Origin: Streptomyces roseochromogenus subsp. oscitans DS 12.976 | Lineage (GTDB): Bacteria; Actinomycetota; Actinomycetes; Streptomycetales; Streptomycetaceae | Assembly (NCBI RefSeq): GCF_000497445.1 | Contig: NZ_CM002285.1 | Span: 9,377,519 to 9,441,518, forward strand | Reading direction: 5' to 3' | Length of the DNA: 64,000 nucleotides | Shown here: piece by piece, positions 16,833 to 27,802 of the stretch | How positions within the stretch are numbered: the stretch's first letter is position 1 | Layout: each line of letters begins with the position of its first letter | Notes under the pieces: generated by a model | Told to the model about the DNA's origin: nothing | The model's database searches: none | What the model saw: the letters and a program-made list of their open reading frames with translations, nothing else | Program-made: the position numbers and the translations under genes

Positions 16833-17049
16833 GATAAATCGGCTGATGGGACTGCCGTTGGGGAGCCAGTGGGGGAGTGGTACGGCAGGTTCGGCCGCGT
16901 GGTCGGGCCCGGCGCAGGGCGATGACAAGGTCGGATCGATCTTGAGTATGTGCTGGTCACCGCCGTGTGACGATGCCCGCCGGGGGTGTCACCCATGCAA
17001 CGAAGCTCCCGTTGAGGACGGATGACTCTCCAAGTCTCCGTTCACAACA

Positions 17050-18173
17050 GGAGCTTCGAGGTTCAGTCGGTCTGCCCGTGTCTGTCTGGTCAGCTCGCCC
17101 GCCTGCTGGCACCGCGCCATCGCGGACTTGCCGGAGCGGCTTGCGACCTTGGCGGATCCTCGGGACCGACAGGGGAAGCCTCACCCGTTCTTGAGTGTGC
17201 TGCTGGTTGCCTGCCCGGCCGGTGGGAGAAGAACGCTCCGCAGGACACGCTCGCCCGGCTCGGTGCCCGCACGGCGACGGTGTGTCGGTATCCGGGTGAC
17301 ACCGAGCGGGTCGACCGTCCGGCCCCTGATGAACTGCACCTGTCTAGGCGGCCTGGCCGACCTGCTTGGATGCGACCCTCCAGAGGCCGACCCCCTGGCC
17401 GTAGACGGCAACCGCGGGTGGCTCGCGTACCTCCGGCAGTCCGGCCACGCCCCTGCTGGCCGCGATGACGGATGCCGGGCAGGCGGTCGCCCAGCTGCTG
17501 GTGCCGGACAAGACCAACGAAATCACCAGCTTTGCCGCCCTGTTGGAATCCTACGACCTGGTCGGGGTCACGGTGACCGCGGACGCGCCCTCCATACCCA
17601 GCGCGATCAGGCCTGGTGCCTTGCCGAGGAGGAGAAGACCCGCTGCGCCTTCACGGTGAAAGCCAACCAGCCGACCTTATACACCCAGCTCAAGGCCATG
17701 CCCTGACAAGAAGTCCGGGCGAAGTACTACGACCGCAGTCGGGGCACGGCCGGCTGGAGATCCGCGTCGTGAAGACCCTGACCGTCACCGGCCCCGGTAT
17801 CGAATTCCCCTACGCCGCCCAGGTCGCGCGGATCGTCCGGCACCGCGCCGGCGCCAAGACCGGCAAGCGCACCCGTGAGACGGTCTACGTCATCCCCGAC
17901 CTCACCAGCCGCCAGGCCACGCCCGAGCGCATCGCGAAGATCATCCGATCGCGTTTGGTGATCGAAAACAGGCTCCACTTCGTACGCGACACCGCCCTCC
18001 CACGAGGACGCCTCCCAAGTCCGCACCGGACACGGCCCAGAGAACCTGGCCACCCTCCGCAGCCCGCCATCAACCCACTCCTCGCCGCCGGTCACACCAA
18101 CATCGCCGCCGCCCTCCGCGAGATGTCCCTCCGCCCCTTCGAGTGGCCACTGAACGTCCTCGGACTCAGCTGA
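17050..18173 (+). pseudogene. ISAs1-family transposase relic (copy B)
   Basis: Nearly full-length but broken by several frameshifts and stops: PERLATLADPRDRQGKPHPF, LADLLGCDPPEADPLAVDGN, AQLLVPDKTNEITSFAALLE, LAEEEKTRCAFTVKANQPTL and finally RSRLVIENRLHFVRDTALPR, with HTNIAAALREMSLRPFEWPL at the end. These are the ordered ISAs1 blocks. Shortly after the stop, GACTTTGCAATCGCCCTGG probably marks the element's right end. The relic sits directly in front of the lanthipeptide operon. Confidence 0.8.
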
Positions 18174-18343: not shown

Positions 18344-19378
18344 GTGAATACGCTGAGCGGCCCCACAGATGTAATCTGGGACATGACGTATTCCTGTCCG
18401 CTGCGCTGTACGCACTGCTATTCGGAGTCCGGCCGACGGCCGTCACGGCAACTCGATCACGCCCAACTGCTCCAAGTCACTGACGCGTTGATATCCCTGC
18501 GCCCACTGGGTATCGCCCTCACCGGCGGAGAACCTCTCCTTGTCAAGGGGCTTCTGGAAGTCGCCGGACGCATCACTCGGGCGGAAATCCCGGTGGTCCT
18601 CTACACCAGCGGGTGGAATGTCGACCGGGCCCTGGCCGAAGAACTCCTGAAAGTATTTCACCGGATCGCCGTGAGCCTGGACGGCGCCACCGCCGGAGTG
18701 CACAACAGGATCAGGGGCCGGGCCCGCTCCTTCGAGAGCGCGCTGAGCACGCTCAGTCTTCTGGACGAGGCGTCCCGGGACCTCGCCGCGCAACTTCATG
18801 CCCATGTCGGCACCTTCGGGATCGACTGCTCATTGATGCGGAGCAACATCCACCAACTGGAGAAATTCTGCACCGACATCGTGCCGCGCTTTCCCGCCAT
18901 GAGGCACCTGGTCTTCGGGGTGACGGTACCCTCCGGCCTGGCCAACCGCGCCGGATTCGCCGAACGCGAGCTCCTCGACGACGCGCTGATCCGCCGCACG
19001 GCAAGTGCTTGGCAGCTCAAACGACTTCAGTCGCTCGCGCCCGGCACGCTGGACATCACCGTCGAGGACAACCGCATGCTGATGATGCACCCTGACGATC
19101 TCGCCAAGGGCTGGGCCCTGCCGGCCATGCAGGTTGAACCGGACGGCGGAGTGCGGGCCATGCCGATCTACGAGGGCACGGTGGGAAACATCCTGGACGA
19201 GGACCCGAACGCCCTGTGGAAAAAGGCGGTTGCCCGGCGAAGTGACCCTTTCGTCGTCGAAACGCTGACGCCCGTGCGCACCATGAGGGAATGGGCCGAG
19301 GCCGCCCGCCGCATCGACCACCACTTCGGCACCGCCGAGGACCGCGCCAGAATAGCCCGGCGCCCCGAATATCGCTGA
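18344..19378 (+). CDS. Radical SAM protein of lanthipeptide operon
   Basis: A predicted [4Fe-4S]/S-adenosylmethionine radical enzyme of about 344 residues. Cys18, Cys22 and Cys25 form the CxxxCxxC motif (SCPLRCTHCY). GGEPLL follows (SAM-binding), and VSLDGATAGVHNRIRG is typical of peptide-modifying subfamilies. The C-terminal part keeps the shape of a SPASM domain (QVEPDGGVRAMPIYEGTVGN), but the cysteines expected there are replaced by alanine-methionine pairs, so an auxiliary cluster is unlikely. I chose GTG 18344 because GGGAGGGG lies 9 bp upstream; ATG 18314 is the alternative. It is followed after 55 bp by lanL and two precursor genes, so it probably adds a second modification to those peptides or acts on a different substrate. 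The reaction is unknown. Confidence 0.8.
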   Translation: MNTLSGPTDVIWDMTYSCPLRCTHCYSESGRRPSRQLDHAQLLQVTDALISLRPLGIALTGGEPLLVKGLLEVAGRITRAEIPVVLYTSGWNVDRALAEELLKVFHRIAVSLDGATAGVHNRIRGRARSFESALSTLSLLDEASRDLAAQLHAHVGTFGIDCSLMRSNIHQLEKFCTDIVPRFPAMRHLVFGVTVPSGLANRAGFAERELLDDALIRRTASAWQLKRLQSLAPGTLDITVEDNRMLMMHPDDLAKGWALPAMQVEPDGGVRAMPIYEGTVGNILDEDPNALWKKAVARRSDPFVVETLTPVRTMREWAEAARRIDHHFGTAEDRARIARRPEYR

Positions 19379-19433
19379 CCCCTCACTGACCTCTCTGTCT
19401 CGCGTTGTCGGTACCGGACGAAGGTGGAAGCCC

Positions 19434-22202
19434 ATGGAACCCGGCCGCATCGCGGAACGGTCGCTGCTCGTGGACTGCGTCCGTTCCGTTCTCTCTCGTC
19501 ACCAACCGCACGAATGGCAGATCAGGCCGGGCGAATTCTGGTGCCATGTCAGGCTGCCGGAGGCTTCAGCACGCATTCAAGGATGGAAACTGCACATCTC
19601 GGCGACACCGTTGTCCGCCCCGCTGGTGCTGGCGCGAACGGCTGAGGTCCTGGCCGACCACCACTGCCCATTCAAATTCGCCGGAACCCTCTCCCGGGTG
19701 GCGGAACTCTGCGCGCGCCAAACGGCCCGGAGCAGCGGCGGGAAATTCATCACCGCCTACCCGGACGGCGACGACGACCGGCTGCGCGCACTCGCGGAGG
19801 AACTGCACCGCGTCACCGAGGGCCTGCCCGGGCCCGGCATCCTCTCCGACCGCCCCTACCGGCCCGGCAGCCTGGTGCACTACCGCTTCGGCGCCTTCCA
19901 GGGGGTGCCCATGCTGGGCAACGAGGCATCGTACGAGGTCATGCTGATGGCCCCGGACGGCTCGCTGGACCGGGACCGGCGCGAGGCATGGTTCTCTCCA
20001 CCGCCCTGGGCGCCGCGCGATCCGTTCACCGGACAGCGGCCCGAACCGCCCGCCTCCGGAACAACGGCACCCCGGCCTGTACGGCTCAACGACCGCTATG
20101 TCGTCCGCGACGTCGTCCGCCACGCCTTCACCGGCGGCGTCTACCGGGCGACCGACGAACGAGACGGCCGCTCTGTCATCATCAAGCAAGCGCGCCCCCA
20201 CACCGGGGCCACCGCGACCGGGACGGACATCTGCAACGCCCGGCGCCATGAAGCCGCCATGCTGGAGCACTTCGCGTCCTCCGGCCGCACCCCGCAGCTC
20301 GTCGCGCTCTTCGAGCAGCAAGGCGAACTCTTCCTCGTCCAGGAGGCCATCGCCGGAGTCACCCTCCGCCAGTGGGTCGCGGGGAACATCACCCTGGAAG
20401 CCGTGGACGACGGCGGCGGCGAGTGGGGCCTGCCCATGGCGCTCGCCGAGCGGCTGGCCACCGGCCTGGCCGACCTGGTGGAGCTCGTCCACTGCGAGGG
20501 TTTCGTCCTGCGCGACCTCAACCCCAACAATGTGATGGTCACCGAAGACCACCAGCTGCGGCTGATCGACCTCGAACTCCTCTCCCGTCCCGGCGAACGC
20601 GTGGTGCACGCCCACACACCGGGCTACGCGGCCCCCGAACAAGCCGCCGCCCGCGCCTGCGACGGCTGTCCCGACCCCACCGCCGACCTCTACGGCCTCG
20701 GTGCGACGCTGCTGTACCTGCTCACCGGCGTCGACCCACTGCTCGCCCCCGATGATCCGCCCGCCCGTCCCGGCCGGCAGCGGATCGCGGGCCTGCTCGA
20801 CCAGCTGAGCCGCGACAACCCCGCCGCGCAGCGGTACGCGCCCCTCGTTCTCGCGTTGCTGCACGAGCGGCCCGAAGAGCGGCCAGGCCTCGCGGACGTA
20901 CGGCGCGCCCTGTCCGGCCAGGCCCGGCCGGCGCCACCCGCGGTGAGCACGGCGGTACCGAGGCGGCCGGCCGGGCCCGAGCTCAAGCAGCTCACCGGCG
21001 ATGCGCTGGAACATCTCCTGGCCACGATGACCCCCGACGCCGACCGGCTCTGGCCGCCCTCACCGTTCGGCGCCACCAGCGACCCCCTCAACATCCAGCA
21101 CGGCGCCGCAGGCGTCCTGGGCGTGCTCGCCCGGGCGCTGCGCGCCGAACCCGGAGCGGAGTTGCGGGAAGCCGTCGCCACGGCCGCCGGCTGGATCGTC
21201 CGCCGGACCGGGCGGGAGCCGCGTGCGCTGCCCGGCCTGTACTTCGGCCGCTCCGGCACCGCGTGGGCCCTCCTCGACGCCGCCGAGGCCCTGGGGGACG
21301 ACACACTGGCCGACACCGCGGCCGACCTCGCCCACCGCATACCGCTGCGGTGGCCCAACCCGGACATCTGCCATGGCTCAGCGGGCGCCGGAATGACCCA
21401 GCTCCGCTTCTGGGAGGCCACCGGCGACCAGGACTTCCTGCGCCGAGCCGGCGAGGCCGCCGAATCCGTGGCCGCCGCGGCCGTCCGCCGGGACGACCGG
21501 CTCCTGTGGCCCATCCCGCGCGACTGGCCGTCCAACCTCGCCGGACTCGTCCACTACGGCTTCGCCCACGGCGTCGCGGGCACAGGCACGTTCCTGCTCG
21601 CCGCAGGCCGGGCCACTGGCGAGAGCGCGTACACGGAGCTCGCGGAAGAGGCCGCACAGACACTTCTGACCACAGCCCACCACGACGGCGGCGCCGCCTA
21701 CTGGACCGCCGGGCCCTCGGGCGGGGCACGCAAGACCAACTGGTGCAGCGGCTCCTCCGGCATCGGCACCTTCCTGCTGCGGCTGTGGCAGCAGAACGGG
21801 GACGCCCGGCTGCGAGCCGGCGCTGAGGCGGCGGCCATCGCTGTCCGTCGCACCCGCTGGCACGCGGGAACCGCCCAGTGCCACGGACTGGCGGGCGACG
21901 GGGAGTTCCTGCTCGACCTGGCCCAGGCCTGCGGACAGCCGCGGCACACCCGGTGGGCCGAGCAGCTGGCGGTCGCCCTTCACACCCGCCACGCCATCCG
22001 CGACGGGCGCGTGCTCGCACCGGATGAGACCGGAACGTCGGTCGTGACCGACTACGGCACCGGCCTCAGCGGAGTGCTGGCCTTCCTGCTGCGCCTGCGG
22101 GACGGCGGGCCCCGCCTGTGGCTGCCAAGGACGCTCGCCGGGCCGTACACGGCACACACGGCCGGTGAGTCAGGAGACCGGACCGGAACCGAAGGGAGGT
22201 GA
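19434..22202 (+). CDS. lanL: Class IV lanthipeptide synthetase LanL
   Basis: A three-domain enzyme of 922 residues that phosphorylates and eliminates Ser/Thr and then forms thioether rings. The N-terminal lyase region (about 1-200) has GWKLHISATPLSA and SGGKFITAYP. The kinase (about 221-495) has Lys251 in VIIK, LRDLNPNNVMV (Asp361) and IDLE (Asp379). The LanC-like cyclase (about 545-900) has CHGSAG (646-651) and the three zinc ligands Cys771 (NWCSG), Cys816 and His817 (QCHG). Retained zinc ligands separate class IV (LanL) from class III (LanKC). The ATG follows GAAGGTGG. The stop codon is 5 bases before the first precursor gene. Regulation is presumably from a promoter in front of the radical SAM gene. 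Confidence 0.93.
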   Translation: MEPGRIAERSLLVDCVRSVLSRHQPHEWQIRPGEFWCHVRLPEASARIQGWKLHISATPLSAPLVLARTAEVLADHHCPFKFAGTLSRVAELCARQTARSSGGKFITAYPDGDDDRLRALAEELHRVTEGLPGPGILSDRPYRPGSLVHYRFGAFQGVPMLGNEASYEVMLMAPDGSLDRDRREAWFSPPPWAPRDPFTGQRPEPPASGTTAPRPVRLNDRYVVRDVVRHAFTGGVYRATDERDGRSVIIKQARPHTGATATGTDICNARRHEAAMLEHFASSGRTPQLVALFEQQGELFLVQEAIAGVTLRQWVAGNITLEAVDDGGGEWGLPMALAERLATGLADLVELVHCEGFVLRDLNPNNVMVTEDHQLRLIDLELLSRPGERVVHAHTPGYAAPEQAAARACDGCPDPTADLYGLGATLLYLLTGVDPLLAPDDPPARPGRQRIAGLLDQLSRDNPAAQRYAPLVLALLHERPEERPGLADVRRALSGQARPAPPAVSTAVPRRPAGPELKQLTGDALEHLLATMTPDADRLWPPSPFGATSDPLNIQHGAAGVLGVLARALRAEPGAELREAVATAAGWIVRRTGREPRALPGLYFGRSGTAWALLDAAEALGDDTLADTAADLAHRIPLRWPNPDICHGSAGAGMTQLRFWEATGDQDFLRRAGEAAESVAAAAVRRDDRLLWPIPRDWPSNLAGLVHYGFAHGVAGTGTFLLAAGRATGESAYTELAEEAAQTLLTTAHHDGGAAYWTAGPSGGARKTNWCSGSSGIGTFLLRLWQQNGDARLRAGAEAAAIAVRRTRWHAGTAQCHGLAGDGEFLLDLAQACGQPRHTRWAEQLAVALHTRHAIRDGRVLAPDETGTSVVTDYGTGLSGVLAFLLRLRDGGPRLWLPRTLAGPYTAHTAGESGDRTGTEGR

Positions 22203-22207
22203 GACAG

Positions 22208-22315
22208 ATGGAGCTTGATGTGAAGGCTCTGCAGCACCTGCAGGAGGAGGAGCCCGAAACGGGCCTCTACCCGTGCACCTGGACCTGCCCGTGGACCTCG
22301 ACGTCCGCGGAGTGA
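22208..22315 (+). CDS. Lanthipeptide precursor LanA1 (35 aa)
   Basis: A tiny frame directly after lanL with an excellent ribosome site (GGGAGGTGA, overlapping the lanL stop) and ATG at 22208. The leader is MELDVKALQHLQEEEPET, helical and acidic like other class III/IV leaders. The putative core is GLYPCTWTCPWTSTSAE: two cysteines four apart and six Ser/Thr. It shares G-L-aromatic-P-C-x-x-T-C with the second precursor 112 bp downstream. Ring topology cannot be predicted with confidence, because most Ser/Thr lie after the cysteines. No known precursor is recognised, and no peptidase or transporter gene is adjacent. Confidence 0.8.
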   Translation: MELDVKALQHLQEEEPETGLYPCTWTCPWTSTSAE

Positions 22316-22426
22316 TCGGACCGCACCAGGCGCGCCGGCCTTCTCCAGGAGAACTCTTGGGGACGGCCGGCGCGCTCGTGCACCTCGCACACCCCTGCGT
22401 CCAGCGACGGAAGGACGGCGATATAG

Positions 22427-22558
22427 ATGAACGAAGAGGATGTAACGGACGCCACTGACAGGGCCGCCGCTGAGGTGCGGGCCCTTCACCTGCTCCCGGA
22501 CGCCGAAAACGACGGCCTGTGGCCATGCCCCATCACCTGCGGGAACACCCAGTGGTGA
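22427..22558 (+). CDS. Lanthipeptide precursor LanA2 (43 aa)
   Basis: A small frame starting at ATG 22427 with GGAAGGA 11 bases upstream. The leader is rich in acidic residues (MNEEDVTDATDRAAAEVRAL, then HLLPDAEND). The putative core is GLWPCPITCGNTQW, which aligns without gaps to LanA1 over GL(Y/W)PCxxTC. Only Thr37 and Thr41 are dehydratable in the core, so at most two dehydrations are expected. The shared core with a divergent leader supports two substrates for one LanL/radical SAM pair. It lies 36 bp before a hairpin terminator. Confidence 0.78.
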   Translation: MNEEDVTDATDRAAAEVRALHLLPDAENDGLWPCPITCGNTQW

Positions 22559-22597
22559 CCACTCCGCTCTGATCTCCGGAGCACCCGCACGCCGTGG

Positions 22598-22631
22598 GCG
22601 TCCCGTCCATCAACGGGGGCGGACGGGGCGC
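22598..22631 (+). terminator. Terminator of lanthipeptide operon
   Basis: GCGTCCCGTCC (22598-22608) pairs with GGACGGGGCGC (22621-22631) with one G-T type mismatch and a 12-nt loop, 39 bp after lanA2. It has no U-tract, as is normal in streptomycetes. Confidence 0.65.
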
Positions 22632-23251
22632 ACACGGGGCCAGCCGGAATGCGGCGGAACCCTGCCGTTGCCCCAAGGGTCCGCAGGCCAGTGAGCTGTG
22701 ACGCCCTGTTGGTCTGTTGCGGTACATCACGTATTCACTGCGGCAGGCAGCAGCGGAGGGGCAGCACGGGCGCTCGGCACGGGTCCGCTTGGCGGAATCC
22801 GCGATGCAAACTCTCAGAGCCTGGCTTTCAGCCTGCCGGTGCGTGTCTGTTGGTCAGTGGCCTGGGCACTTCTTCCAGGCGAAGCGGTACTTGGTGTTGA
22901 AGCCGCCGTGTTGAAGTTGCGCTTCTCGCCGCAGGGAGCGCATACGAGGGCCCTTTGGGGCTTCTGCTCCCCGACCCCCATAGAGCGGCAACGCCGTTCA
23001 CCCACCGTAGCCACCACAACCGAACGACCACTGTTGCCCTTCACTCGACCAATCGGACAGCCCCTAGACCGAAGCCGAGCAGCAGTGCCAGAAGGACGGT
23101 CGTGGCGCGCCCTTGCGGACCTGCCGGCGTGTGATGGTCATTCATGCCTCCATGTGGTACGTGCGGATGCGGTTGTCACCTTGCGCAACTTAGCAACTAT
23201 TATCGCGACGGACAGCGATTCTTCCCACCTCCGGATCATGACGGGGTTCTG
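22632..23251. other. Gene-free or degenerate 620-bp stretch
   Basis: No frame here has a convincing start, ribosome site or family. A short minus-strand run near 22.85-23.0 kb contains CAPCGEKRNF and, in another frame, FNTKYRFAWKKCPGH, which looks like a decayed small zinc-ribbon protein. The last 100 bp probably hold the promoter of the LURP-one-like gene. Confidence 0.4.
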
Positions 23252-23755
23252 ATGCGTTACCTGGTACGTGACCGCATGCTGGCCTTCCACGAGGAGGCCT
23301 GGGTCGAGACGGAACACCGGCAGAGGCTGTTCAAGGTCAATCGCAAACTGCTGCGCCTGCGCACCACGTTCGACTTCGTCGACACCGAGGGCCGGCAGAT
23401 GGCGAGCATCGTCAAGAAGGCGCTCACCTTCCACCACACGATCCTCATCAAGCAGGACGGCGAGAACGTGGGCCGCATCAGCAAGCGGAAGTTCCGGATA
23501 TTCGGGGACCGCTACAAGGTGACCCTGCGCGGGGGACGCCGGCTGCGCATCGCCGGCAACCTCTGGGACCGCGAGTTCGACATCGCGGACGACAGCGGCA
23601 CCCTGGCACACATCTCGCGCCGGTGGTTCACCATCCGTGACGCCTACGCCATCGACGTGATGAGCGAACCGGACTGGCTGCTGCTGGTCATCCTCGCCGT
23701 GTGTGTGGACCACATCATCGAGGACCGCGAGGGCGAGCAGCTCACCAACCTCTGA
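23252..23755 (+). CDS. LURP-one-related (DUF567) protein
   Basis: A cytosolic protein of 167 residues with the LURP-one/tubby-like beta-barrel pattern: MRYLVRDRMLAFHEEAWVET, then NRKLLRLRTTFDFVDTEGRQ, KALTFHHTILIKQDGENVGR and ISRRWFTIRDAYAIDV. Length and strand order match the family, often described as phospholipid scramblase-like in fold. Members have no established enzymatic function in bacteria. I chose ATG 23252 because the conserved strand order begins there. It is followed 74 bp downstream by a membrane metallohydrolase gene on the same strand, possibly co-transcribed. Confidence 0.75.
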   Translation: MRYLVRDRMLAFHEEAWVETEHRQRLFKVNRKLLRLRTTFDFVDTEGRQMASIVKKALTFHHTILIKQDGENVGRISKRKFRIFGDRYKVTLRGGRRLRIAGNLWDREFDIADDSGTLAHISRRWFTIRDAYAIDVMSEPDWLLLVILAVCVDHIIEDREGEQLTNL

Positions 23756-23829
23756 CCCAAGCACATCTGTGACGCTCGGACATCTACGCGCCGTTGACGC
23801 GGCACCGAATCGGGGGAGAACCACCTTCC

Positions 23830-24531
23830 ATGATGGGCCATTCGCACGCCGTGAGCGGCGCCCTGCTGTTCGCCGGCACCGCTCCCTACCTTCCACCTGT
23901 GCTGCTGCACACACATCTGTCGCCCCAGGAGATCCTCATGGGCACGGTGCTGTGCGCGGGCGCCGCACTGCTGCCCGACCTGGACCACCACGACGGCACG
24001 ATCGCGAACTTCCTCGGTCCGGTCTCCCGGATGCTGTGCCGGTTCGTCGCCTTCATCTCGGGCGGTCACCGCCATGCCACCCATTCCCTGTTCTTCGTCG
24101 CTTTCGCGACCCTGGGTACCTGGGCCGGAATCGCCTATCTGGGCAGGCCGTTCACGCTCGGCATGTGCTTCCTCCTGCTGGCGCTTGCGGTGCGGGCACT
24201 GAACCTCTGCCCGCCCGGGCACGGCTTCCATGCCTGGGGCACCAACGTGGCGCTGGCAGCGCTGGGGACCGCCGCCATCGCCAAGTTCATTCCCTCCGCG
24301 CCGGATTGGCTGCCCTACGCGATCGGCCTGGGCTGCCTGGCCCATCTCCTCGGGGACTCCATCACCAAGCAGGGCGCGCCGTGGCTGTGGCCGCTGAAGA
24401 CACGGTACGAGATCGTGCTGATCAAGAGCAGCGGCAACAAGCTGGAGACCGAGATACTGACGCCGCTGATGGGCGCCGGGACGATCGCCCTGCTCTGGCT
24501 GACCGTCCTGTCGCCGTATCCCCTGCACTGA
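23830..24531 (+). CDS. DUF457 (YdjM-like) membrane metal-dependent hydrolase
   Basis: An integral membrane protein of about 233 residues. The family signature is visible: GHSHAVSGALLF at the N-terminus, LLPDLDHHDG (metal ligands, about 52-61), GGHRHATHSLFF (about 79-90) and LAHLLGDSITKQG near the end, with 5-6 hydrophobic segments between. These are the conserved His/Asp residues of inner-membrane metallohydrolases of the YdjM type, whose substrate is unknown although a role in envelope or lipid metabolism is often suggested. ATG 23830 has GGGGGAG about 12 bp upstream; ATG 23833 is equally possible. Confidence 0.8.
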   Translation: MMGHSHAVSGALLFAGTAPYLPPVLLHTHLSPQEILMGTVLCAGAALLPDLDHHDGTIANFLGPVSRMLCRFVAFISGGHRHATHSLFFVAFATLGTWAGIAYLGRPFTLGMCFLLLALAVRALNLCPPGHGFHAWGTNVALAALGTAAIAKFIPSAPDWLPYAIGLGCLAHLLGDSITKQGAPWLWPLKTRYEIVLIKSSGNKLETEILTPLMGAGTIALLWLTVLSPYPLH

Positions 24532-26469: not shown

Positions 26470-26959
26470 CAGGGCTTTGCCCGGGGCGTCTCACCAAGGG
26501 CTGGCAGGGAGGGCCGCCGCCGGCCGCGCAGTGCCTGATCGTCATGTGCCCGTCGTTGCTCGTGGCACTGACAATGCTCCGAGTGGGCGCGGTAAAGCCT
26601 TCGCGTTGCGGTCAGGTTGCGCTGCGAAGGCTCCGAGGGCAAAGCAGTCCCCGGTAGTGCTGCGCGTGTCCTGAAGCTTCAGTCGTCACCGTTGCTTCGG
26701 TGTCGCGCCGGCTTGCCGGGGGCTTGAACCACATCCTGTCCGAGTCGCTCCGCCGATTAGACGTCCTCGTCGGCTTTGCAGCCTTTTCGGTGTTGTGGTC
26801 TAGACACCACCCTCCACGCATTGCGGTGCGAGTCAATGGGTTCTAGGTAAAACTTTTAACCGTCGGCGGGTGGAGGCCATGCTTGACCCCGGCTGGCTCT
26901 GGAGCATGTCCCGCCCACTCCTCGTCATAGGCTGGACTCAGCTCGGGGCTGAACGCGCG
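26470..26959. other. Intergenic, no gene seen
   Basis: No supported frame. It contains GTGGTCTAGACAC at 26795-26807, which resembles half of a DasR-type site but is not symmetric enough to call. The right part probably holds the left end of the IS5 element. Confidence 0.35.
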
Positions 26960-27802
26960 GAGGTCCGCAATGCCGTCGCGATGGTCCGGAGCCATCTCGT
27001 TCGGATGGTCACCGTGCCTGCGACCGTGGTCTCCGCTACCCAAGATCGTCAAGACCGCCCACCCGCTGGGCTGCTACAACCCGCGTATCCCCGACCGAAT
27101 CGTCTTCGAGCGTGTCATGGCTGCCCTGGTGCACGGTTCCGGCTACGAGCGGATCGCTGGTCCCGACTGCTCCGACCGCACCATCCGACGTCGCGTCAAG
27201 TACTGGGCGGAGCTTGGGCTGCCCCCGCAGCTGTATGCGCTGGCGTTGCGGGTGTACGACCGCGTGATCGGCCTGGAACTCGGCGAGTTGTCCGTGGACG
27301 GCTGCATTACCAAGGCCCCTGCGGCGGCGAGGCAGCTGGCCGGTCCCCGGTGGACCGGGGCAAGCAAGGGCTGAAGCGCTCGGTGGCCACCGAGGCGTGC
27401 GGCGTCCCGCTCGGCATGGTGGCGGCCGGAGCCGACCGCCACGACTCCCCGCTGCTCGTGCCCACACTGGAAGCCGCCAAGGAGCAGGTCGACGTGGATC
27501 TGGACCGCGGCTATGACAGCGACAAGACCCGTGCCGCCCTGCCAGAGTTCGGCTTCACCGGCGAGATCGCCCGCAAAGGCCTGCCCGCCCCGATCCAGGC
27601 TGGCAAGTGCTGGGTGGTCGAACGCGGTCACGCCTGGATGAACGGTTTCGGCAAGCTGCGGCGGTGCATCGAGAAGCGCAGCTGCGTCGTGGACTTCTAC
27701 CTCTACCTGTCCGCCGCGACCATCACGCTGCGTATGCTCATCCGCCGCGCGACTCCGCTCTACCGCTGGGACACCCGCCCCACCACCCAGCGCCTCAAGT
27801 AA
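26960..27802 (+). pseudogene. IS5-family transposase, one frameshift
   Basis: The two halves of a DDE transposase lie in neighbouring frames. The first (to about 27350) has VFERVMAALVHGSGYERIAG, RRRVKYWAELGLPP and LELGELSVDGCITKAP (first catalytic Asp). The second continues KQGLKRSVATEACGVPLGMV, DVDLDRGYDSDKTR (second Asp) and VVERGHAWMNGFGKLRRCIE (catalytic Glu), ending LIRRATPLYRW. A single slip near 27320-27350 would join them. I see no classical A-rich slippery site, so decay is likelier than programmed frameshifting, although some IS5 subgroups do use the latter. Confidence 0.7.

Follow-up and report, generated by a model that had tools for sequence, protein, structure and literature searches.

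A compact class IV lanthipeptide operon of Streptomyces roseochromogenus subsp. oscitans DS 12.976 places a gene for a radical S-adenosylmethionine enzyme (rSAM) ahead of the lanthionine synthetase gene lanL and two short genes, A1 and A2, all in that order on the forward strand. It lies in a stretch of 64,000 nucleotides (nt) (NZ_CM002285.1, positions 9,377,519 to 9,441,518; hereafter ‘the window’), at 9.38–9.44 Mb of a 9.78-Mb genome assembled in two contigs. We found that this rSAM family goes together with a small motif at the leader–core border of the precursors beside it, an aromatic residue followed by Pro and mostly then by Cys, which we denote OmegaP. The motif is present in 76 of the 79 candidate precursors at rSAM loci, whereas class IV LanL loci that lack the rSAM have it in 1 of 71. 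Judged from sequence and gene context, the operon probably makes a twice-modified lanthipeptide, with the rSAM acting on the same precursor as LanL, at OmegaP.

The aromatic-Pro motif accompanies the rSAM

Loci of the rSAM were collected by a scan of genome contigs; 104 stretches were confirmed, and the best 80 of the 104 gave 76 loci, two of them myxobacterial (L037 and L080). At 62 of the 76, the flanks that were fetched include a match to a synthetase, either LanL or LanKC-like. Candidate precursors were called with a filter blind to the motif, which asks for a leader pattern, a ribosome site, a Cys and a Ser or Thr after the leader, few Arg residues and a place next to a match to a synthetase, a prolyl oligopeptidase (POP) or the rSAM. 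Its leader pattern was written after candidates of both sets had been seen; the earliest locus scan, more restrictive and built on a narrow ALQ pattern, yielded little and was superseded. The filter was run on two sets of loci: 82 with the rSAM, 58 of which gave a candidate, and 58 class IV LanL controls, of which 50 did. The controls are loci without the rSAM from the window’s family, where the 60 LanL places fetched are a subset of those found.

The separation persists when the candidates are collapsed at 60% identity, with OmegaP in 21/23 clusters at rSAM loci and 1/27 at controls (Fisher p 8e-11, uncorrected for kinship). Distinct peptides at rSAM loci carry it in 69 of 72 cases, mostly 7–9 residues past the leader motif, with Trp in 41, Tyr in 16, Phe in 7 and His in 5, the pattern admitting only these four at the first place. 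The residue after OmegaP in these 69 peptides is Cys in 64, Asp in 2, Pro in 2 and Glu in 1, and never Gly. Scans that made no use of the motif returned it as GLYPC, ELYPC, SLWPC, GLFPC, AHPC, QWPC and GAWPP. Judged by identical precursors or sequences, some strains are doubled among the rSAM loci (L174/L017, L175/L078 and L161/L047), which the distinct-peptide and cluster counts handle.

The three candidates without OmegaP at rSAM loci are an open reading frame (ORF) in L013, probably false, and extra copies in L031 and L076. The sole match among the controls, in L143, is an odd long ORF. Class III control loci without the rSAM, scanned to 2,500 rather than 1,000 bases, had OmegaP in 0/16 candidates (13 of 20 loci gave a candidate). 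The contrast is seen most directly between the control L114 (ALQALDSEE...VQCTFTCDWTSW) and the peptide of the nearest relative, G192 (ALQHLQEEE...GLYPCTFTCPWTSTSAEAE), which are alike in leader and core and differ most plainly at the OmegaP place. Controls L118, L128 and L133 have no OmegaP, and their genomes (G265, G152 and G202) carry the rSAM elsewhere. Beside the rSAM of S. orinoci (L040), a motif-using scan found the peptide MPDILELQALEEEAPTLWPTTNLDAAD, which keeps the aromatic-Pro pair, followed here by Thr, contains no Cys at all and has a strong ribosome site. Separately, LRPC stands in place of aromatic-Pro-Cys in class IV precursors of L276 (genome G434, with a solitary rSAM) and L138 (G125, no rSAM nearby), and His-Pro-Cys precursors track one rSAM clade, as judged from labels that were partly hand-set.

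No candidate passed the filter at 24 of the 82 rSAM loci and 8 of the 58 controls. Relaxed scans of the 24, partly motif-blind and partly motif-using, gave OmegaP peptides at nine (L016, L020, L023, L024, L027, L034, L040, L052 and L064), which we kept out of the counts because the controls had no equal second look.

Loci chosen by the synthetase

Because the motif had been seen on the loci that were counted, the collection was rSAM-based, the controls came from a single family and the pattern admits four residues at its first place, we took a fresh set chosen by LanL after the motif had been fixed, with the filter unchanged. This set comprises 20 loci, namely 16 places in 16 of 296 genomes of the class and four places not previously examined. 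The two loci with the rSAM both have OmegaP, in 3/4 candidates, and are the same records as L076 and L049. At the 18 loci without it, 12 of which gave a candidate and six none, OmegaP was present in 0/12 candidates. Over all LanL-chosen loci fetched, the motif occurs at 4/4 loci with an adjacent rSAM (L159, L161, L294 and L295) and at 1/62 loci with a candidate where no rSAM is adjacent (76 loci in all).

Three loci of this kind, L296–L298, have LanL, a POP and an ALEMLP-type leader as at rSAM loci, but no adjacent rSAM, and their precursors read QLRGC or QLRDC instead of LWPC. One genome, G349, holds both arrangements: L295, with the rSAM, has LWPC, and L296, with no adjacent rSAM, has no OmegaP.

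Kinship and solitary rSAM genes

On a synthetase tree with 165 rows, six changes are required to explain the rSAM label, and clades of rSAM-bearing synthetases lie inside class III and class IV alike. Across 200 pairings OmegaP goes with the rSAM, save for one pairing in which one pair did not differ. Within the window’s LanL clade the rSAM adjoins LanL in 18/18 rows, an adjacency that is partly by construction because all rows but the window, L159 and L161 were collected through the rSAM. The rSAM gene had been expected to be conserved beside this type of lanL; window-like LanL genes with no adjacent rSAM nevertheless exist, namely L279 and L280–L282.

These exceptions came from 13 genomes in which the first scan found the rSAM without a synthetase, and for which 26 regions were fetched. 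OmegaP was present at 3 of the 20 candidates in these regions, those of L280–L282 (genomes G436 and G439), where the rSAM lies elsewhere in the genome; the remaining 17 stand at different synthetases and have no OmegaP. G436 has a second rSAM approximately 50 kb from the window-like LanL, and the rSAM of G439 sits where a short contig is about to end, which may have cut off its own neighbour. G437 has a LanL approximately 17 kb from the rSAM, and its other window-like LanL (L279) gave no candidate precursor. Near most solitary rSAM loci no convincing OmegaP peptide was found.

A probably single-cluster radical SAM family

A protein search for the rSAM found 1,243 relatives among 8,000 candidates scored, and the named ones among the 120 relatives listed are mostly actinobacterial, with some Myxococcota. 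The start position of the window’s enzyme agrees with its homologues. Within the window’s family it occurs in 6/297 genomes at E 1e-30 or better (own genome counted). The co-occurrence of rSAM and LanL that the preliminary description proposed to look for is found in other genomes, and the system is wider than class IV, as the rSAM family stands beside both class IV and class III-like synthetases.

The cluster cysteines C18, C22 and C25 are invariant in all 76 aligned homologues; in a second set of 87 rows drawn from the loci their invariance is by construction, because the rows were picked by a pattern that contains them, as the 76 were not. After residue 200 the homologues have no Cys in 60 cases, one in 15 and two in 1, and the loci set has none in 59, one in 25 and two in 3. 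Auxiliary-cluster cysteines of the SPASM/Twitch type were found in neither set; the family therefore bears the radical-cluster motif without any indication of an auxiliary cluster. The most conserved further Cys is C176, present in 74/76 homologues and 74/87 rows of the loci set, where most two-synthetase class III loci have Ala. The best relatives by profile and PDB sequence are the mycofactocin maturase, SkfB and PqqE, with which the N-terminal rSAM domain is shared. Unlike these enzymes, the window’s rSAM has no conserved Cys in its C-terminal half, and it falls far below the equivalog cut-offs (86 bits against 265 for the mycofactocin maturase model).

LanL, precursor A1 and candidate precursor A2

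Profile matches and the retention of rSAM, LanL and A1 in G192 establish the four-gene operon as real (Table 1). The LanL match to the class IV model lies well above the cut-off of 650 bits, whereas the class III model gives 471 bits, below its cut-off of 575. The protein carries RamC_N, Pkinase and LANC_like domains (Pfam) and the expected kinase motifs. All three cyclase zinc ligands claimed for it are located, as the NWC motif (C771) and the QCHG motif (C816 and H817), which we take to be LanC-type ligands; the roles of the kinase motifs are likewise presumed.

A1 belongs to the ALQxL class IV precursor family, with a score above the cut-off of 19 bits, and the family is therefore already described, contrary to the suggestion of the preliminary description that no known lanthipeptide has this core. 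A2 matches no NCBIfam family up to E 0.1, and so stands below ALQxL membership; it passes the same motif-blind filter as the other precursors, contains GLWPC and is probably a real precursor. Good ribosome sites had been noted for both small genes: that of A1 (GGGAGGTGA, before its ATG) is as described, but that of A2 is weaker. The strong hairpin reported behind A2 is also present, although it begins 33 nt past the stop codon rather than 39; the folding energy of the 102-nt stretch is -54.4 kcal/mol (z -2.5), a value matched by 5/200 shuffles, and a search for the terminator consensus at this hairpin gave no match. It is true, as noted before, that the operon has neither peptidase nor exporter; some related loci have POP and ABC (ATP-binding cassette) exporters.

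In 148 genomes of the class, the ALQxL model NF038157 matches three, the window’s own included, and is too rare to use for comparison. When a 303-residue part of LanL was compared with the other 149 genomes, the best matches reached at most 54% identity, a result that fits, without proving, the idea that window-type LanL may be missing where the rSAM is missing.

Table 1 Features of the operon and its neighbours (positions in the window)
Feature	Position	Strand	Evidence
Transposase-like remnant right before the operon	16967..18173		ORF reading; tested piece without Pfam match
rSAM, 344 aa, GTG start, CxxxCxxC at residues 18, 22 and 25	18344..19378	+	PF04055, 66 bits
LanL, class IV lanthionine synthetase (lyase, kinase, zinc cyclase), 922 aa	19434..22202	+	NF038150, 1105 bits; RamC_N, Pkinase, LANC_like
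LanL C771 (NWCSG), presumed zinc ligand	21744..21746	+	Motif position
LanL C816-H817 (QCHG), presumed zinc ligands	21879..21884	+	Motif position
Precursor A1, MELDVKALQHLQEEEPETGLYPCTWTCPWTSTSAE, 35 aa, ALQxL leader, YPC	22208..22315	+	NF038157, 26.4 bits; kept in G192
Tyr-Pro-Cys of A1 (OmegaP then Cys), proposed rSAM site	22268..22276	+	Counted from sequence; rSAM/OmegaP association
Candidate precursor A2, MNEEDVTDATDRAAAEVRALHLLPDAENDGLWPCPITCGNTQW, 43 aa, Trp-Pro-Cys	22427..22558	+	ORF; passes motif-blind filter
Stable hairpin downstream of A2; may be a terminator, though it has no T-run	22592..22637	+	Folding against shuffles
Genes for a LURP-one-related protein and a YdjM-type membrane protein, behind the operon	23252..24531		
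DDE transposase gene behind the operon	26870..27799		PF01609

What the rSAM may do at OmegaP

If the operon makes a twice-modified lanthipeptide, LanL would bind the ALQxL leader, phosphorylate Ser and Thr of the core and eliminate the phosphate, and then add Cys thiols to the dehydrated residues, forming the thioether ring or rings. Phosphorylation, elimination and thiol addition are established chemistry for class IV enzymes. The rSAM would act at the aromatic-Pro pair of the leader–core border (GLYP/C in A1 and GLWP/C in A2), so that OmegaP would be its reaction site; our best guess at the chemistry is a short-range radical C–H functionalization initiated at either the aromatic residue or the Pro. 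Leader removal and export would fall to genes outside the operon; the order of all these steps is likewise presumed.

Among forms of this reaction, the likeliest single one, although itself more unlikely than not, links the aromatic residue to the residue at i+2; a triceptide-type cyclophane synthase would join the aromatic ring with the beta carbon at that place. The four residues that our pattern admits and finds at the first place, Trp, Tyr, Phe and His, are those described for triceptides, which are linked from i to i+2 (accessible text of PMC11002830). OmegaP precursors may resemble triceptides in having a possible partner two places on from the aromatic residue, and the residues seen there (Cys in most, Thr in L040) never include Gly. 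However, the invariant middle Pro falls outside the triceptide rule. In addition, the triceptide enzymes described in the accessible text of PMC11002830 are SPASM/Twitch proteins, and the window’s rSAM family is without those cysteines.

An epimerase, which would convert the aromatic residue or the Pro to its D form, is an unlikely form of the reaction. Redox-neutral chemistry of the kind that peptide epimerases perform needs no auxiliary cluster, in keeping with an rSAM whose conserved cysteines are those of the radical cluster alone. In known peptide epimerases, however, a Cys donates the hydrogen, and no Cys beyond the cluster motif is strictly conserved in the family. C176 was considered for this role and rejected on its incomplete conservation in the loci set.

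OmegaP might instead be a POP cleavage site that frees the core before the first Cys, with the rSAM acting elsewhere or not on the peptide at all. POP leader removal is known in class III and S9 POPs are implicated in class IV maturation as well, with FlaP cutting after a Pro (accessible text of PMC10885120); OmegaP sits at the leader–core border just before the first Cys, and a POP match is present at 15/58 rSAM loci with a candidate. The cross-table of POP, rSAM and OmegaP does not support a cleavage site, as 27 loci have a POP with neither rSAM nor OmegaP, and at 43 loci rSAM and OmegaP occur together where no POP match is nearby; of the remaining loci with a candidate, 15 have all three, 22 have none and 1 has OmegaP alone. 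The POP-bearing loci L296–L298, which keep the ALEMLP leader without an adjacent rSAM, read QLRGC or QLRDC at this place. POP matches in genome G000 are weak only, and a POP may be encoded elsewhere in a genome. As OmegaP follows the rSAM across these loci, we consider the POP explanation improbable and rejected it. A coincidence in which rSAM and OmegaP simply mark the same few lineages and are functionally unconnected is very improbable: independent events are few and most rSAM loci were gathered through the rSAM, but the pairing occurs with synthetases of both class III and class IV, whose leaders differ, holds without Cys (L040) and with the rSAM elsewhere in the genome (L280–L282), and within G349 holds at L295 and fails at L296.

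Several points weigh against a twice-modified product. The motif was first noticed on the same rSAM loci that were later counted, these loci were gathered through the rSAM, and the motif-blind class IV controls come from one bacterial family. Independent pairs number 2 if supported branches are required and 5 if the best tree is taken; they point in the right direction, but are too few for a sign test to reach significance. The extra copies without OmegaP in L031 and L076 look real and stand beside siblings with OmegaP and Cys. At 15 of the 82 rSAM loci no candidate was found even after the relaxed scans (L008, L010, L022, L028, L036, L037, L038, L056, L061, L063, L072, L073, L079, L080 and L083; L010, L036, L038 and L056 are near contig ends), and eight further genomes with a solitary rSAM had no OmegaP peptide near the fetched synthetases. 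The myxobacterial genomes of L037 and L080 contain the rSAM but gave no RamC_N match, so the enzyme may act on a different substrate in them. Of the two precursor genes expected to be intact in related operons, A1 is kept in G192, but A2 was not found behind it, in surrounding DNA that is 82% identical over 188 aligned bases. Finally, the support comes from sequence comparison and gene neighbourhood; the association with OmegaP makes the second modification that the preliminary description attributed to the rSAM a probable one.

With these points counted, we still regard a lanthipeptide modified by both LanL and the rSAM as the probable product of the operon. For the broader proposal, that a single-cluster rSAM family places a new modification on the aromatic-Pro pair, independently of Cys, in both class III and class IV lanthipeptides, we consider the case evenly balanced.

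Variation among rSAM clusters and the setting of the operon

Some rSAM clusters contain extra genes, including POPs, ABC exporters, two-component-like genes, cytochromes P450 and a major facilitator superfamily (MFS) protein. The POP gene (cluster c7) is present at 16/76 rSAM loci, its member in L009 being PF00326, and the cluster of L016 (4634–10990) has two cytochrome P450 genes. Tandem class III-like synthetases stand beside the rSAM in L015 (11111–16389), L017, L025, L033, L035, L048, L062, L067–L071, L074, L075, L077 and L078. In L015 the first synthetase has RamC_N and LanC-like matches and no kinase match, and the second has RamC_N, a kinase and a weak LanC-like match, which suggests a split of labour. 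L029 (10001–18676), L043, L046, L047 and L161 each combine two rSAM genes, ABC-transporter-like genes and one LanL, with short precursors of the FPC type.

The operon of the window is itself flanked by a transposase-like remnant and a DDE transposase gene (Table 1), an arrangement that would fit a mobile region. The LURP-one-related and YdjM-type genes behind it have no visible link to the operon.

Relation to known systems and implications

The A1 leader and LanL lie above both curated cut-offs of the ALQxL class IV system (NF038157 and NF038150). What the window adds to that family is the rSAM beside LanL and OmegaP before the first core Cys, the latter seen in a single one of 71 candidates without the rSAM. 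Clusters L154–L158, which we take to be venezuelin-like, also have a LanL over the class IV model, but they differ in leader and core and have neither rSAM nor OmegaP. Class III is touched as well, as relatives pair this rSAM family with LanKC-like synthetases; the noursin cluster comprises LanKC, a precursor, an S9 peptidase and a transporter, and no rSAM is named in the accessible text of PMC10206099.

The presence of rSAM genes in lanthipeptide clusters has been noted before, in a 2020 survey whose accessible text also states that no secondary modification of class IV lanthipeptides had been reported (PMC7268733). Our literature search, with subscription literature mostly outside its scope, found no report of the rSAM/OmegaP pairing or of the motif, and neither is named in the accessible text of PMC7268733, PMC10206099, PMC9576775, PMC11002830 and PMC10885120. 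New here is the link of OmegaP precursors to an rSAM family whose genes adjoin synthetases of class IV and of a class III-like kind.

The link between rSAM and OmegaP offers a testable reaction site in short precursors, and natural variants are at hand, with Trp, Tyr, Phe or His at the first place, with and without Cys, together with matched controls that lack the rSAM. Should the reaction prove oxidative, its catalysis by an enzyme with no auxiliary-cluster cysteines would be mechanistically unusual. If the broader proposal is true, it would represent a secondary modification of class IV lanthipeptides and a hybrid ribosomally synthesized and post-translationally modified peptide (RiPP) system found across many actinobacterial genera.

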